DNA of 41,994 nt, from NCBI GenBank assembly GCA_009692005.1, contig SHZZ01000031.1, positions 1-41,994 on the forward strand, in the 5' to 3' direction. This document shows positions 96 to 21,484 of the stretch, piece by piece. The stretch comes from Gemmataceae bacterium. GTDB lineage: Bacteria > Planctomycetota > Planctomycetia > Gemmatales > Gemmataceae. Position 1 is the stretch's first letter. Every line of letters starts with the position of its first letter. The notes beneath the pieces were generated by a model. It was not told the DNA's origin and made no database searches. It worked only from the letters and a program-made list of their open reading frames with translations. The translations under genes and the position numbers were made by a program.

Positions 96-1355
96 ATGCG
101 GGAAATTAACCGGATGGTGTTTTTGAGTCTGGGCTGGCTGGGTTTGGGCATGTTTGCCAGCACGGCGGAACCGCTGAGCCCGGAGCAGTTCGCCAAGGCG
201 CAAGCTTTAATCAAGCCCAGCCCAGACGAGGAAGCCTGGGCCAAGATCCCCTGGCTAACCGGCCTGTGGCAGGCGCGGGAAATCGCCGCCAAGGAAGGCA
301 AGCCGATCCTCCTTTGGGAAATGGACGGGCATCCGCTCGGCTGTGTCTGAAACAACGGAGTCGCGGGCCGTGCGCTCGCTTTTTCCGATCCCGAAATCAT
401 CAAAATGGCCACAGAAGACTTTGTGGCGGTAAGCGCTGACGACTGGTACCAACGGAGGCGCAGCGACGCCGAGGGGGAATTCTTCCGCAAGGTCGCTGAC
501 CAGGGTCCGCGCAAAGGCGCGGGCGGTTCCACCCGGCAGGGGATTTACTGCCTGACCGCGGATGGGAAACTGCTGGCCTACAAAAACGCAGGCCAGTCCC
601 CCGAGGTGATGAGGGAAGCGCTTCGCCAAGGTTTGAAGGAATGGAAAAAACTGCCGGCGGAACGGCGCAAGCCTGGCGCGGCTCAAGTGGGCGAGGCGGG
701 CAAGGTCGATGCCCGCTATGACCGCCAGCCGCCCCCCGGGGGGTTGATCGTGAATGTTTACACCCGCATTCTCGGGCGGGAGAAAGGCGAGCTCTGCCGG
801 GGAACTTGCAAATCGGTGGTGGGGGAGCAAGCAGCCCGCGACCATTTATGGCTGACCCAGGCGGAGTGGCAAGGGCTGATCCCGAACAACCCATTCGAGG
901 GAAACCAGGCTCCGTTGGCCCCGGCCGTGGCCGAGCGTATTCTTCGTTTTCACCTGATCGACAACACGCGTGGCGAGCCGCCCATGTGGCGGCGGGAGGA
1001 TATCCGTTCGCAGAAGCTGACGCTGACGGTGGTGTTAGTCACGCCATTAGAAGTGCGCTTAAAGTTACATGGCCAGGTTTTGCTGGCTAACGGAGCAGAT
1101 GCGGCCAAGGCCGAACGGGGCTTCGAGGCGCAAGTGCAAGGCGAGATCCTCTACGATCGGAAAAAGCAGGCAATCACCAGGTTCGACGCGGTGGCGTTGG
1201 GGGAGCATTGGGGCGAAAGTTCCTTCACGCGTGAAGCCCGTGCGGGGCGTCAGCCCTTGGGGGTTTCCTTCCATCTGGCGGGTAAAGATCCGGCCGACCT
1301 GGTGCCGCCCCAGGCCGCGCGTGAGATCGGCCTGTACCTGGGCCGATACAAGTAG
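96..1355 (+). CDS. Candidate secreted selenoprotein with thioredoxin-like domain, in-frame UGA at codon 85
   Basis: The start at 96 has a strong Shine-Dalgarno (GAGGAGGG, 82-89) and begins a signal peptide (MREINRMVF then a hydrophobic core to about residue 24). The frame stops at TGA 348-350 and then continues open, without a frameshift, to TAG at 1353-1355, giving 419 residues if TGA is decoded. Residues 50-113 resemble a thioredoxin-like fold of the kind that begins with a phrase like AREIAAKEGKPILLW; the UGA falls where the redox motif lies, giving GCVU (Cys83, Sec85). Downstream are FSDPEIIKMA, FVAVSADDWY, a CRGTC pair (Cys234, Cys238) and a C-terminal region I do not recognise. The ATG at 405 has no ribosome binding site, which argues against two separate genes. 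TGA is a normal stop in neighbouring genes, so the code is not reassigned. Alternatives are a nonsense pseudogene or a sequencing error. Sec decoding is inference. Confidence 0.7.
348..386 (+). promoter_or_regulatory. Candidate bacterial SECIS hairpin directly after the UGA codon
   Basis: After TGA 348-350 the RNA can form a six-pair stem, GCGGGC (363-368) with GCTCGC (374-379), including one G-U pair, closed by the five-base loop CGTGC (369-373). A lower stem is possible: GGA 357-359 with TCC 384-386. The apical loop begins 18 bases after the UGA and has G as its second base. The published bacterial SECIS model expects a small apical loop 16-37 bases downstream with a G among its first two bases, so the geometry fits. 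The fold was worked out by eye, and GC-rich sequence forms hairpins easily. Confidence 0.5.
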
Positions 1356-1401: not shown

Positions 1402-1520
1402 GTTGTGAAAAAATGGAATAATTAATCATGGGGCCGAGGCACTCGGCTCGCCCGTATCAATTCTTTCTTGAATCCCCTATGCTATGCCCTTTGCGAAACA
1501 CCCTGGATGGGATTTTCATC

Positions 1521-4500
1521 ATGAAATTCAAACGCTGGATGATCTGTCTGTTGTTGTTCACGGGCTTGCAAGGGGTTTGCGCCCAGGAGAAAATTCCCGA
1601 CACGCAAGTAGGGAATGAAAAGCTCATGGCGCCAGCGGAAGCGCTGAAAAGCCTGCGGTTGCCGGATGGTTTTTCCGCCACCCTCTTTGCCCACGAGCCA
1701 GCGGTGATTCAGCCAATTGGCATGTCCTTCGACTCGCGCGGCCGCCTGTGGATCAGCGAGTGCCTGACCTACGCTGAGACCAAGCTCAATTTTGATTTAA
1801 CATTGAAAGACCGGGTGGTGATTCTGGAGGACACCGATGGGGACGGCTTGCACGACAAGCGAAAAGTCTTCTGGGATCAAGGTCAGAAAGTGACGAGCGC
1901 CTTGCCGGGATTTGGCGGGGTGTGGGTTCTGGCGGCGCCCAAGCTCCTGTTCATCCCCGACCGCGATGGCGACGATAAACCGGATGGCGAGCCGGAAGTT
2001 GTGCTGGATGGATTTGATGCCGGCCCGATCCGGCACAATATCGTCAACGGCCTGGCCTGGGGCCCGGACGGCTGGCTCTACGGTCGGCATGGCATTCAAG
2101 CCACTTCTTTTGTGGGCCCCCCGGATACACCGGCCAGCAGGCGCGTGCCGCTCAATTGCGGCATCTGGCGCTACCATCCCACGCGCAAAGTTTTCGAAGT
2201 GGTCAGCAGGGGAACGACCAATTCCTGGGGCCACGACTGGGACGCGAACGGGGAATGCTTTTTCATCAACACGGTGATCGGCCACTTCTGGCACGCCATC
2301 CCGGGCTCGTACCTCAAGCGCATGTATGGCGAACACTTCAACCCGCGCCTCTATGAACTGATTGATCAGCACGCCGACCATTTCCACTGGGACCGCGCCG
2401 AGAATTGGAGCGATGTGCGCCAGAAAGGCGTGACGCCCACTTCCGACAAAGCCGGGGGCGGCCATGCCCACTGCGGGTTCATGATCTATCAGGGTGACAA
2501 CTGGCCCGAAAAATACCGGGGTAAAGTGTTCACCGTCAACTTTCACGGCAGGAGAATCAACAGCGACCGGATCGAGCCGCATGGCAACGGCTTTTTGGCC
2601 AAGCACGAGCCCGATTTCATGCACATCGGCGACCCGTGGTTTCGCGGCATCGAACTCGCCTACGGGCCCGATGGCGGCGTCTTCCTACTCGACTGGTCGG
2701 ATACAGGCGAATGCCATGAAAATGATGGCGTCCACCGCAACTCCGGCAGGATTTACAAGATTGTCCATGGCAAGGTGAACCCCTTGAAGCCCTTCGACCT
2801 GGCCAAACTTTCCGATCTTCAGCTTGCCCAGATGGTGAAGAGCGCCAATGAATGGCACTACCGCCAGGCCCGGCGGATTCTGCAGGAACGGGCCAGCGGC
2901 GGCGCGGCCATTGCCCCTGCTTGCCGCCAGACACTTCTAAGTTTCCTGAGCCAGGGCGCCACGGTGCAGGAAAAGCTGCGGGCCTTGTGGATGTTGAACT
3001 CGCTGAAGCCTCTTACGGAAGAGTTTCTTTTGAAGCTGCTTGAAGACGCGGAGCCGGCGATGCGAACCTGGGCCGTGCGCCTGCTCATGGATGGCGACGC
3101 GGTTTCCCAGCCGGCGGTGGCGAAGTTGCAAGTTATGGCCAGCAGGGAACAATCTCCTTTGGTGCGGCTCTACCTGGCCTCGGCGCTGCACAAGATTCCC
3201 TTGAACGCGCGGGGCGAACTGGCCCTTGCCCTGGCAAAACGAACTGAAGATGCCAACGACCACAACCAACCTTTGATGATTTGGCACGGGGCGGAGCCGC
3301 TGGCGTCGGCGCGGGCAGATTTCGCGGTGAGGCTGGCGCTGGAATCGCGCATGAAACCGCATGCTCGCTTTGCTTCGCGGGTGCTGGCCGAGGAAATCAC
3401 CACCCGGCCTACGGGCCTCGCGGCTCTGTTGCAACAGGGGGCCTCGCGGGATCCGGGCACACGGTTGGAAATCGCCCTGGGGATGCGCGATGGCATGCGC
3501 GGATTGACAAAAGCCACGCCCCCCGCTTCCTGGCAGGGCTTTCTACAAAAATTGAACGAAGGAAAAGAGGATGCCAGGCAACTGGGACGGGAGCTGGCCG
3601 TGGTCTTTGGCGATGGGCGGGCCTTGGCCGAGATCCGCAAGATCGCCCTCGATGGCAAGGAGTCGGCGGCTGCCCGGCAATCGGCCTTGCAGACCTTGGT
3701 CGACAGCAAAGCGCCCGACCTGGCCCAGATCCTGCCCAAGTTGATTGGCGATCGAGTAGTGGCGGAGGCCGTAGTGCGCGGTCTGGCCGCCATTGATTTG
3801 AAAGAAGCGCCCAATCTGATCCTGGGGCAATTCGACCGGCTGGAACCCAACGGGAAAAAAGCGGCCATCGATACTCTATGCTCGCGCCCGGCTTACGCCC
3901 TGGCCCTGCTCAAGGCCATTCAGGAAGGGAAAGTGCAGCGACTTTTTCTCACGGGCTACCATGCCAGGCAAATCGCGCAGTTCAATGACCCGGCTTTGAG
4001 CCAGTTGTTGACCAAGGCCTGGGGCGAGGTGCGGCTGCCCTCGGAAAAGGTCAAGCTACGGATGGCGTCGCTGCGGCAGAAAATGACTCCGGATACGGTG
4101 GCCAAGGGGAACCCCTCGCACGGGCGGGCCTTGTTCAACCAGGTGTGCGCCAACTGTCATGGGCTCTTTGGCCAAGGGGGCAACCTGGGGCCAGACCTGA
4201 CCGGCTCGCAGCGGAGCAATCTGGAATACCTGCTGGAAAACATTCTGGAGCCCAACGCCACCGTGGCGGCGGATTTCCGCATGTCCGCGGTGGCCATGAA
4301 GGATGGCCGGTTGATTACGGGGTTGTTGTTCCCGCGAGCCAATAACACGGTTGAACTTGTGGGGCCAACGGAAAAGAAAACGGTGTCGCGGGATGACATC
4401 GAGAGCATCCGTGCATTGCAGGTTTCCCCCATGCCGGAAAACCTGTTCGAGAATTTGAAGGAGGAGCAGATCCGCGACCTGTTTTCTTATCTCATGGGGC

Positions 4501-4523
4501 CCGGGCAAGTGGCGCTGCCTTGA
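1521..4523 (+). CDS. PVC-type membrane-bound dehydrogenase / heme-binding domain protein
   Basis: This 1000-residue protein belongs to the large planctomycete/Verrucomicrobia family that joins a propeller dehydrogenase-like domain (TIGR02604 type) to a C-terminal heme-binding domain (TIGR02603 type). The start at 1521 is chosen because MKFKRWMICLLLF begins a clean signal peptide, whereas the frame is open further upstream to 1428 without one. Propeller phrases are visible, such as DSRGRLWISE and GPDGWLYGRHG. A helical, HEAT-like middle follows (about residues 430-830). The single c-type heme motif is CANCH (Cys876, Cys879, His880), followed by the family phrase GPDLTG. The location is probably periplasmic. 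The substrate is unknown; oxidation of a sugar or alcohol is the usual assumption for the family. It is convergent with the next gene. Confidence 0.88.
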   Translation: MKFKRWMICLLLFTGLQGVCAQEKIPDTQVGNEKLMAPAEALKSLRLPDGFSATLFAHEPAVIQPIGMSFDSRGRLWISECLTYAETKLNFDLTLKDRVVILEDTDGDGLHDKRKVFWDQGQKVTSALPGFGGVWVLAAPKLLFIPDRDGDDKPDGEPEVVLDGFDAGPIRHNIVNGLAWGPDGWLYGRHGIQATSFVGPPDTPASRRVPLNCGIWRYHPTRKVFEVVSRGTTNSWGHDWDANGECFFINTVIGHFWHAIPGSYLKRMYGEHFNPRLYELIDQHADHFHWDRAENWSDVRQKGVTPTSDKAGGGHAHCGFMIYQGDNWPEKYRGKVFTVNFHGRRINSDRIEPHGNGFLAKHEPDFMHIGDPWFRGIELAYGPDGGVFLLDWSDTGECHENDGVHRNSGRIYKIVHGKVNPLKPFDLAKLSDLQLAQMVKSANEWHYRQARRILQERASGGAAIAPACRQTLLSFLSQGATVQEKLRALWMLNSLKPLTEEFLLKLLEDAEPAMRTWAVRLLMDGDAVSQPAVAKLQVMASREQSPLVRLYLASALHKIPLNARGELALALAKRTEDANDHNQPLMIWHGAEPLASARADFAVRLALESRMKPHARFASRVLAEEITTRPTGLAALLQQGASRDPGTRLEIALGMRDGMRGLTKATPPASWQGFLQKLNEGKEDARQLGRELAVVFGDGRALAEIRKIALDGKESAAARQSALQTLVDSKAPDLAQILPKLIGDRVVAEAVVRGLAAIDLKEAPNLILGQFDRLEPNGKKAAIDTLCSRPAYALALLKAIQEGKVQRLFLTGYHARQIAQFNDPALSQLLTKAWGEVRLPSEKVKLRMASLRQKMTPDTVAKGNPSHGRALFNQVCANCHGLFGQGGNLGPDLTGSQRSNLEYLLENILEPNATVAADFRMSAVAMKDGRLITGLLFPRANNTVELVGPTEKKTVSRDDIESIRALQVSPMPENLFENLKEEQIRDLFSYLMGPGQVALP

Positions 4524-18316: not shown

Positions 18317-21292
18317 TCACGGGGCGCCGGGGATTTTCTTTGCCCCGGGAGAGCCCGGCGGCTTGTCCCAGATCAAGTACGACACCAAGTCGGCAAGTTC
18401 TTTGGGTGTGATCTGTTTCTCCACCCCCTCGGGCATGAGGCTGTTGGGGCTGCGCTTCATCTCCTCGATTTCCGCTCGGGGAACGATTTCCAGCTTCCCA
18501 CCTTGGACCTTCAGCGCCACTCTGGCGGGGCTGTTTTCCACCAGCAGACCGGACAGCAGCCGTCCCTTGGTCGTGACCACCTGGGTGGCCTGGTAGTCCG
18601 CGCCGATCACCAGGCCGGGGTCGAAAACATTGGAAAGAAGCTGATCGAAGCTGGCGCGGCCGTTGGCGGTAATGTCCGGCCCCACTTCCTGTCCTTCGCC
18701 ATGCATCTTGTGGCACTGGCCGCAAACCTTGTTGTAGACCAGCTTCCCGTTGCCCGGGTCGCCCTTGGAATTAAGAACCACAGCGCGTATCTCCTGCAAG
18801 ATTTTTTCCCGCGCTAGGTCGCGCCCCTCCCGCACCGTGCCCCAGTGCTTGGCCAGCTTCTCCTTTAGTTTTGCATCGTTGCCCGAGTTGAGCTTTCTGG
18901 CCTGCGTGATGCTGATGGCCGAGGCCGGGAGTTTCTTGTTGGCGACGGCATCGAGAAGCGTGCTGGCCCAACCCGGCCGCTGTGTCAGCAACTCCACAGC
19001 CCGCGGCTGCAGCGTCGGTTCCAGCGAAGGGTAAAGGTCGAGAACGGCGGCAGCCAAAGCTGGGCTCGTTAGTTTTCCCATCGAGCCGAGGATTCCCGCC
19101 CGCAGAGGCAGAGATTCCTTCCCTCCTTTCAAGAGGGCCAAGGCCATCTCGGTCGCCCGGGCCGGGTCGGCGAAGGTCACGGCGTCAAACGCCTGCAGCC
19201 GCAAGGACTCCTCGCTTTTTGACTGGTTAAAAAGCGTCAGCGCCTCTTGCAAACTTGGCGGATCATTCCAGGTGGCGAGGAGAAACTTGACTTCATTCCA
19301 AGAATGGACGCGGGAAAGAACCGGGGCGAGTTGCTGGCGCAGGGCATCAATTTGATCTGAGGGAATCTCACCCGACTGAGTTTTCCCTGCCAGCACCAGG
19401 CAGACCTGCTTGCCAGCTTCTTGATGGTTGTCCTTGACGAGAAGGGCCAGGAGCGAGGCAATGACGGAGTGGTTTCCCTTATCGGCCAGGAGGCGCTCGG
19501 CCAACTTGCCCAAGAGAGCCGCCTCAGTGGGAGAAGAGGGGTTGGCTTCGGCCGCCTTGATGAAGGCCTGTGCCGCCTCTTGTGAGTTCATGAGGGGGTG
19601 AAGGTTTTGCCAGACGATTTGCGGGAGGATGGGGTCGGTTTCTGAGTGGGCGACGACATCTGAGAGGACTTTGGTTGCATCGAGGGCGGTGATTTTTCTG
19701 GCGGCGATGGCCACCTGCAAGCAGACATCAGGGGAATCATCTTTGGCCAGTTGTCGAATGCGGGCGCGGATTTCTTGGCTCACTTCCCGGGTGTTCCCTG
19801 CTGCCCGAACTCCCCAGGCGCGGAACTGCTCCTCTTTGTGCCCCAGCAATCGCAGGTGAAACTCCTCGGGCAAGGGTCCGGAGCTAACCAGGGTGAACAA
19901 GGCGTGCATGCGCGCTTTGAAACCGGCCTTCTCATCGAGAACGATTTGCTCGACCTTCGGCCTGAGCCCCGGGCTTTGCGAATTAACCAGCCGTTCGTTC
20001 AACAGCCGTTGCGCCAGGTCGCGGTAGTAAACATTGGCATGGCCGAGTTTATTCAAGAGTGATTCATCGGTTTCGGAAGCGAGGTCGAACTGGCCGGCCC
20101 GCGGGGTGTTTTTGTAACGGACGCGGTAGATGCGGCCGCGCAGGCGGTCGATGCCAGCGGGATCGCGGCGGGCGTCCTGGTAGCAGTGGTAGCGGTCGTA
20201 CCAATCGAGGATGTACAGGCAGCCATCGGGGCCGGTCTTCTGGCCCACGGGCATGAACCAGGCGTCGTTGGCTGTGAGGAGGTCGTGGCGCGGCTTGGCG
20301 AAATAGGTGGCGCCATTCCGTTCCAGCTTATCGGCATTGATGCAGTTGCCATGGATGTTCCCCATGTACAGCATTTCTCTGTACTCCGGCGGGTAGGCGT
20401 CGCTGTCGAAATAGTGCAGGCCGCAATAGGCCGCCATCTGGTGCTTGTGCTTGACGATGGACATAATTTTCCAGGTGAAGGGCGGGTACACGCCCGCCTG
20501 CCGGTGGTAGTAGCCTGTTTCTACCAGGTGCCAAAGGTGGTCGATGACGCAGGCGGAGGCGAAGGCGCTGCCGTTGGTGTCAAAGGCCAGCCCCCAGGGG
20601 TTGCTGGTTCCCTCGGCGAAGATTTCGAACTGGCGGGTGCGGGGATGAATGCGGAAAAGGGCGCAAGTCAGATTTTGTTCCTTCCCCTGGTGGTTGATTT
20701 TGCTGTAGTTGAAGATGCCGTTGTAGCCATACAACCAGCCATCGGGCCCCCAGGTGAGTGAGTTGGGCAACTCGTGGGTATCGTGGCGGCCAAAACCGGT
20801 GATGACCACTTCCCGGGAATCGGCTTTGCCATCGCCGTTGGTGTCTTTCAATAAAAGGATGTCGGGGGAGTTGGCCACCCAGACCCCGCCGTGGCCGACT
20901 GCAATGCCCGAGGGAATGTTCAACCCTTCGGCGAAGATGCTGACCTTGTCGATCCTGCCATCGTTATCGGTGTCTTCAAGGATTTTGATCCGGTCCCGGC
21001 CCGGGCCCGGTTCAAAGCGAGGGTATTCCAAACTTTCCACCACCCAAATTCTTCCTTTTTCGTCGAAGGTAAAGGCCACTGGGTTGACGAGGTCGGGCTC
21101 CGAAGCGACCACCTCGACCGAGAAGCCCTCGGGGACTTGCATCTTTTTGATGGCGTCCGCGGGAGAGAGCGGGTCGTTGGGCGGGTTTTTTTGGTTGTGG
21201 GGAATCGCGGGCTTTCCCTTGTTTTGTGCCTGAGAGGAATAACCCAAGGCAATCAGGGCCAGCAGCGCCACTGCGAATAGGGAGCGCTTCAT
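18317..21292 (-). CDS. PVC-type membrane-bound dehydrogenase / heme-binding domain protein, second copy
   Basis: The 991-residue product starts at ATG 21292 (GAGG just upstream) with signal MKRSLFAVALLALIALGYSSQAQ. The architecture matches the gene at 1521: a propeller dehydrogenase-like domain (FDEKGRIWVVESLEYP, WGPDGWLYGYNG, DWYDRYHCYQD), a helical HEAT-like middle (about residues 400-830) and a C-terminal heme domain with CGQCH (Cys857, Cys860, His861) and VGPDITANGR. It ends in a Pro/Gly-rich tail. It is periplasmic by prediction. It sits directly upstream of an operon of sugar isomerases and a dehydrogenase, and downstream of GH2, consistent with a role in oxidising glycan-derived sugars; this role is inferred from position only. 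Confidence 0.88.
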   Translation of the reverse strand: MKRSLFAVALLALIALGYSSQAQNKGKPAIPHNQKNPPNDPLSPADAIKKMQVPEGFSVEVVASEPDLVNPVAFTFDEKGRIWVVESLEYPRFEPGPGRDRIKILEDTDNDGRIDKVSIFAEGLNIPSGIAVGHGGVWVANSPDILLLKDTNGDGKADSREVVITGFGRHDTHELPNSLTWGPDGWLYGYNGIFNYSKINHQGKEQNLTCALFRIHPRTRQFEIFAEGTSNPWGLAFDTNGSAFASACVIDHLWHLVETGYYHRQAGVYPPFTWKIMSIVKHKHQMAAYCGLHYFDSDAYPPEYREMLYMGNIHGNCINADKLERNGATYFAKPRHDLLTANDAWFMPVGQKTGPDGCLYILDWYDRYHCYQDARRDPAGIDRLRGRIYRVRYKNTPRAGQFDLASETDESLLNKLGHANVYYRDLAQRLLNERLVNSQSPGLRPKVEQIVLDEKAGFKARMHALFTLVSSGPLPEEFHLRLLGHKEEQFRAWGVRAAGNTREVSQEIRARIRQLAKDDSPDVCLQVAIAARKITALDATKVLSDVVAHSETDPILPQIVWQNLHPLMNSQEAAQAFIKAAEANPSSPTEAALLGKLAERLLADKGNHSVIASLLALLVKDNHQEAGKQVCLVLAGKTQSGEIPSDQIDALRQQLAPVLSRVHSWNEVKFLLATWNDPPSLQEALTLFNQSKSEESLRLQAFDAVTFADPARATEMALALLKGGKESLPLRAGILGSMGKLTSPALAAAVLDLYPSLEPTLQPRAVELLTQRPGWASTLLDAVANKKLPASAISITQARKLNSGNDAKLKEKLAKHWGTVREGRDLAREKILQEIRAVVLNSKGDPGNGKLVYNKVCGQCHKMHGEGQEVGPDITANGRASFDQLLSNVFDPGLVIGADYQATQVVTTKGRLLSGLLVENSPARVALKVQGGKLEIVPRAEIEEMKRSPNSLMPEGVEKQITPKELADLVSYLIWDKPPGSPGAKKIPGAP

Positions 21293-21484
21293 GGACAATC
21301 CTCAATCAGGTGGGATGTTTCGCCGGAGTTCATGGACTTAGGGTAATTAATTGGAATACCCCTGACAAGGATTATCTGGGGTTGACGAGCGACTGGGCCA
21401 CTGTCAACTCTTGGTCCCGCCCGCCATGCGGTTCAATTGTTGAGAGTACCGGGCACAAAAACAGACTGTGGCGTTTGCGCCTGG

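Follow-up and report, generated by a model that had tools for sequence, protein, structure and literature searches.

Does the TGA at 348-350 of this contig end a gene, or is it read as selenocysteine (Sec)? The window, by which we mean the whole stretch of 41,994 nucleotides analysed here, carries a forward-strand frame from 96 to 1355 that is open save for this one codon, as the preliminary description had stated and the window sequence confirms. The frame begins at ATG 96-98, 7 bases behind the ribosome binding site AGGAGG (83-88), and closes at TAG 1353-1355; it spans 419 residues, with the TGA at residue 85. The first half had been predicted to supply a signal peptide, and by eye residues 1-24 (96-167) look like one of the Sec export type, a hydrophobic leader that ends in FASTA followed by EP, is likely cut after A24 and forms a helix over residues 2-17 in the AlphaFold2 model. 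The TGA itself sits in the motif HPLG-C83-V-U85-NNG, where Cys83 (342-344) is the sole invariant cysteine among 72 proteins and the likely resolving thiol. We propose, at a probability of roughly 0.85, that the frame encodes an exported selenoprotein, with the UGA recoded through SelB and the product a thioredoxin-fold thiol/selenol oxidoreductase. A scan of the window for other frames joined by UGA gave ordinary gene ends and shadow frames, with no convincing candidate among them.

Seen in a single genome, an in-frame stop of this kind is just what a random nonsense mutation in a formerly intact cysteine gene, or a sequencing error, would leave behind. Relatives were collected in an independent scan, limited to one genome per species, whose search peptides excluded the homologous UGA codon. 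The 78 loci it yielded belong to Planctomycetota and Verrucomicrobiota, are 36-66% identical and include the isolate Limnoglobus roseus. All 78 carry TGA at the homologous codon, far more than chance would give, and none has TAA or TAG there. Homologs were found in 43 of 99 related genomes searched, and 37 of the 40 matches with E<1e-40 contain exactly one in-frame stop, again TGA; the remaining three have TGC for Cys (L021), GAC (L032) or TCC (L134). Across the phylum, 119 of 392 genomes match at E<=0.001, with one TGA in most of the matches that span the site. An identical TGA in dozens of independent genomes excludes sequencing error. The earlier expectation that the column would hold Cys or UGA was borne out for UGA; its Cys half was not, since the family is nearly Sec-only and the column almost all UGA.

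Selection on the second half bears on the same alternative. For 16 pairs of relatives dN/dS 3' of the UGA is 0.08-0.37, and invariant residues lie on both sides of it, from P41 to Y414, among them N86 and N87. By these comparative measures the frame beyond the TGA is under purifying selection, and the decay of the downstream frame that had been named as a possible refutation is not seen. Together with the uniform TGA, this leaves a pseudogene or sequencing error with a vanishingly small probability.

A genuine stop at 348-350 would instead yield an exported protein of 84 residues and a separate downstream gene with its own start. Such a gene can be drawn, as an ATG-initiated ORF of 316 residues at 405-1355, and many relatives have a GTG four or five codons past the TGA. 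Position 405 is the first in-frame ATG after the TGA, and bases 390-404 before it hold no Shine-Dalgarno sequence, in agreement with the earlier remark that the second half lacks a ribosome binding site of its own. In relatives the first in-frame starts 3' of the TGA vary in place, with no one conserved position. The residues NNG..R just past the UGA are invariant or nearly so, though two separate genes would leave them untranslated. The stop would also cut one predicted domain between its active-site strand and helix. We consider two genes very improbable here.

Reading the UGA as some other amino acid, for example tryptophan through a suppressor tRNA or a variant code, would open the frame just as well, as would any sense reading. 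In 31 of 76 genes of the family, however, TGA is also the true terminal stop, which shows that it has not taken on a new meaning; each gene has a single internal TGA, placed at the active site; and tRNA-Sec and SelA, SelB and SelD are present and co-occur with the family. This alternative is extremely unlikely.

The machinery for Sec is complete in the source genome, which has tRNA-Sec with a UCA anticodon, selA, selB about 0.3 kb from selA, and selD. A genome without it had been foreseen as a refutation; the proposed search for selA, selB, selC and selD found all of them. The selD gene (G000:C47:7588-8517) has one in-frame TGA of its own, which makes SelD a probable selenoprotein in this genome as well. 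Among the related genomes a strong SelA occurs in 38 of 43 that bear the family and 31 of 56 others (p=3e-4). Four of the five family-bearing relatives without a strong SelA have SelB and/or tRNA-Sec; in G057, which is 88% complete, strong SelA, SelB and tRNA-Sec were all not found. For the phylum the corresponding figures, which ignore shared ancestry, are 81 of 85 UGA-bearing genomes and 164 of 307 others (Fisher p=7e-15). The four UGA-bearing genomes in which no strong SelA was found (G177, G300, G350 and G365) may be incomplete assemblies. SelA is present in all 20 of the further genomes that hold loci, from both phyla.

Recoding through SelB would call for a hairpin behind the UGA, and a bacterial SECIS-like one lies at 363-379, with its stem at 363-368/374-379 and the loop CGUGC at 369-373. 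The loop begins 18 nt past the UGA. In an ungapped alignment of 79 sequences, with columns 24-31 set against 35-42, this register pairs 84.8% of the cells, where slid versions of it pair 34.6-47.6%. Both sides have changed in six of the eight pairs. The covariation score of 0.500 compares with 0.297 after shuffling (0/500). RNAalifold recovered the inner six-pair stem independently. The register is shared by two forms: 30 sequences have an eight-pair stem closed by the loop GGU, and in the second form the loop is CGUGN or near it. The hairpin lies inside coding sequence, so part of the conservation could be driven by the protein, yet both sides co-vary.

The published bSECIS model (PMC13188914) has a G among the first two bases of the loop, sets the loop 16-37 nt past the UGA and limits the free energy to <= -7.5 kcal/mol. 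A G stands within the first two loop positions in 78 of the 79 sequences, whose loops begin 18 or 19 nt past the UGA, so that the family hairpin is inside the limits of the model for loop G and distance. The window hairpin has -9.6 kcal/mol over 31 nt (stem only) and -15.0 over 41 nt, both below the model's ceiling. The family median for the 19-nt core is -6.9 kcal/mol, so some members reach -7.5 only with longer stretches. Folding of single sequences was no better than for shuffled ones (z -0.2 to -1.3); it is thus covariation alone that supports the hairpin. Rfam and tRNA scans of the window returned nothing.

The preliminary description had called the gene a probable new selenoprotein, and the conserved UGA, the covarying hairpin, the machinery and the selection support this strongly.

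What kind of protein it would be is suggested by the predicted structure. Residues 46-189 (231-662) form a thioredoxin-fold domain in the AlphaFold2 model (mean pLDDT 92.5). By VIA-align this domain matches 3f9u with Z 13.3 and an rmsd of 2.3 over 116 residues, AGR3 and 1sen with 11.7, 3ira with 10.8 and the DsbD C-terminal domain with about 9. The predicted fold spans the UGA at residue 85, which upholds the view that one thioredoxin-like domain needs both halves of the frame. Foldseek gave no significant match for the full model. A profile restricted to the close family gave no relative in the PDB; only the wide family profile, A2, gave some. A2 places Sec85 opposite the first, attacking Cys of CHWC (3ira/7tkv) and CVNC (3f9u), and in the model the active-site helix begins at residue 86. 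The UGA had been said to occupy the place of an expected redox Cys. As to the position of the first CxxC cysteine this stands; the partner, in contrast, is found two residues upstream. No CxxC motif is present: C-x-U-N-N is invariant and a downstream Cys is absent. With Sec85 as the first Cys of CxxC, the resolving thiol is probably Cys83, two residues before it.

The remainder of the protein holds a beta-barrel-like domain in the model, at residues 215-395 (738-1280), with no clear structural relative. Modelled by itself it is again confidently beta-barrel-like (pLDDT 92.8). Foldseek found nothing significant for it (best E 0.02), and VIA-align reached Z <=6.8, to the OmpA, PagL and OmpW barrels and to PsbO; we do not treat it as a new fold.

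From these computed lines we infer the steps from Sec insertion and export to chemistry, substrate and the role of the C-terminal domain. SelB and Sec-tRNA-Sec would bind the hairpin behind the UGA and place selenocysteine at residue 85, and the ribosome would then read on to TAG 1353 and complete the 419-residue protein. Once its signal peptide had been cleaved, the mature protein would be a thiol/selenol oxidoreductase working outside the cytoplasm. From its place where the active-site helix begins, the selenolate of Sec85 would attack an oxidised substrate, a disulfide or some other; Cys83 would then resolve the product, the two residues forming a selenenylsulfide of the Cys-x-Sec type. Binding of the substrate or of a partner is the probable role of the C-terminal beta domain, which is a guess.

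A redox function of the family is likely. Sec might nonetheless be inserted into a protein other than a thiol-disulfide oxidoreductase: a peroxidase, a scavenger of metals or metalloids, or a processor of a ligand held in the C-terminal domain. Three observations lean this way: (i) the downstream Cys of a canonical CxxC or UxxC is missing; (ii) GPX-like structures also match the N-terminal domain by VIA-align, at the lower Z of 5.4-5.6; (iii) a fused MsrB/MsrA-like gene, hence one resembling methionine sulfoxide reductases, lies about 1.9 kb upstream in five Verrucomicrobiota loci (L084 and four similar ones), possibly as mere shared synteny. The nearest folds are nevertheless thioredoxin-like reductases and isomerases (3f9u, AGR3 and the DsbD C-terminal domain, Z 9-13), and Sec85 lines up with their attacking Cys. 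We regard these other chemistries as unlikely, though a serious alternative, and retain the thiol/selenol oxidoreductase as the working assignment. No conserved neighbour gene across the 78 loci points to a partner or substrate.

The family behaves as though Sec were hard to replace. Cys stands at the Sec site in L021 (TGC, a close relative) and L147 (TGT, a distant one), and the partner Cys is changed in both. The other paralogs without UGA have lost both active residues or kept one Cys; in L172-L179, L032, L134 and L135 the Sec site is Ser, Asp, Arg or a gap, and several of these lack both active-site residues. In the genomes sampled here Sec thus appears to be lost along with the redox site and not swapped for Cys.

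On balance we favour a wider reading, that of a large exported thioredoxin-fold family with near-obligate Sec, an inverted C-x-Sec-N-N site with the resolving Cys upstream and an attached beta domain that lacks a clear structural relative, a family which has been overlooked because homology-based finders seek Cys counterparts. As described for deep-Sep (PMC12013277), current finders retain only candidates for which a homolog with Sec is known or several homologs with Cys exist. This requirement makes Sec-only families a systematic blind spot, and the near absence of a Cys version may explain why searches that pair Sec with Cys missed this one. If the Sec-only reading is true, it suggests that further such families are hidden. 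In the present family, a standard gene caller would presumably break the gene into a small fragment plus an orphan hypothetical protein. The family offers a concrete training and test case for selenoprotein finders, and makes testable why Cys cannot simply replace Sec in some enzymes.

Known families come close in parts. The window protein has no match at E<=1 in Pfam or in NCBIfam release 20, in which some catalogued families have no model. With the Thioredoxin_7, DsbH (DUF255) and DsbD C-terminal group (3f9u, 3ira, 7tkv) it shares the thioredoxin fold over residues 46-189, and Sec85 sits at their first CxxC Cys; it differs from them in having UNNG, a partner Cys at -2 and an extra beta domain of about 220 residues. 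Some paralogs match Thioredoxin_7 or Thioredox_DsbH weakly (best E 0.0009-0.0013), below the Pfam gathering cut-off. The VPGUxxT families (NF041382, NF041383) are likewise thioredoxin-like selenoproteins, and distant paralogs match them weakly over the N-terminal domain, the best of ten scoring 18.5 bits against cut-offs of 350 and 275; the window protein has no VPG before Sec and no matches. The Trx7/PDZ selenoprotein (NF041199) is also of the Thioredoxin_7 type, but is characterised by CxxU and a PDZ domain, and the best of ten paralogs scores 13.6 against its cut-off of 300.

The closest in spacing is the thioredoxin-like selenoprotein Sec.1 (PF13192, CxU) listed in PMC13188914, which shares C-x-U in a thioredoxin-like fold but has another domain architecture; the window protein has no PF13192 match at E<=1. 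That source, which catalogued 119 families of prokaryotic selenoproteins in 2026, does not contain the architecture of the window protein, judging by its names, domains and motifs. In the two selenoproteome reviews consulted we found no mention of Planctomycetes. According to a planctomycete genome paper of 2016 (PMC4807772), two planctomycetes use Sec and have candidate selenoproteins; a relative of the family may be among the candidates in the paper's supplement. We found no description of such a family in other literature on planctomycete or verrucomicrobial selenoproteins, a search that covered few subscription journals. The sequence evidence strongly supports a real selenoprotein gene from an uncatalogued, widespread family, one that adds to the known selenoproteins of Planctomycetota and Verrucomicrobiota.

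Several further groups are related to it. Distant subfamilies have the Cys immediately before Sec (CU), and some of the TGC codons there sit directly 5' of the TGA. In the wider superfamily of Planctomycetota, L155-L163, L150-L154 and L139-L140 show RC-U-GYA, GRC-U-NGA or SRT-U-GAC contexts and would represent several more uncatalogued selenoprotein subfamilies. The source genome has a distant paralog (L143, G000:C42:7829-8296) with the motif DERC-U-VYAG and a long additional region at its C-terminus; it is probably another selenoprotein of the family in this genome. A gene fragment 77% identical to the window gene (L115) lies on a contig binned as Rhodobacteraceae, which is probably a mis-binned planctomycete contig.

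Within the window, the gene is followed after 72 bases, on the same strand, by a large DUF7133 protein with a cytochrome c domain (1428-4523), a neighbour that is not conserved among the relatives examined. A second large DUF7133 protein, like the first of planctomycete type, is encoded at 18317-21298.
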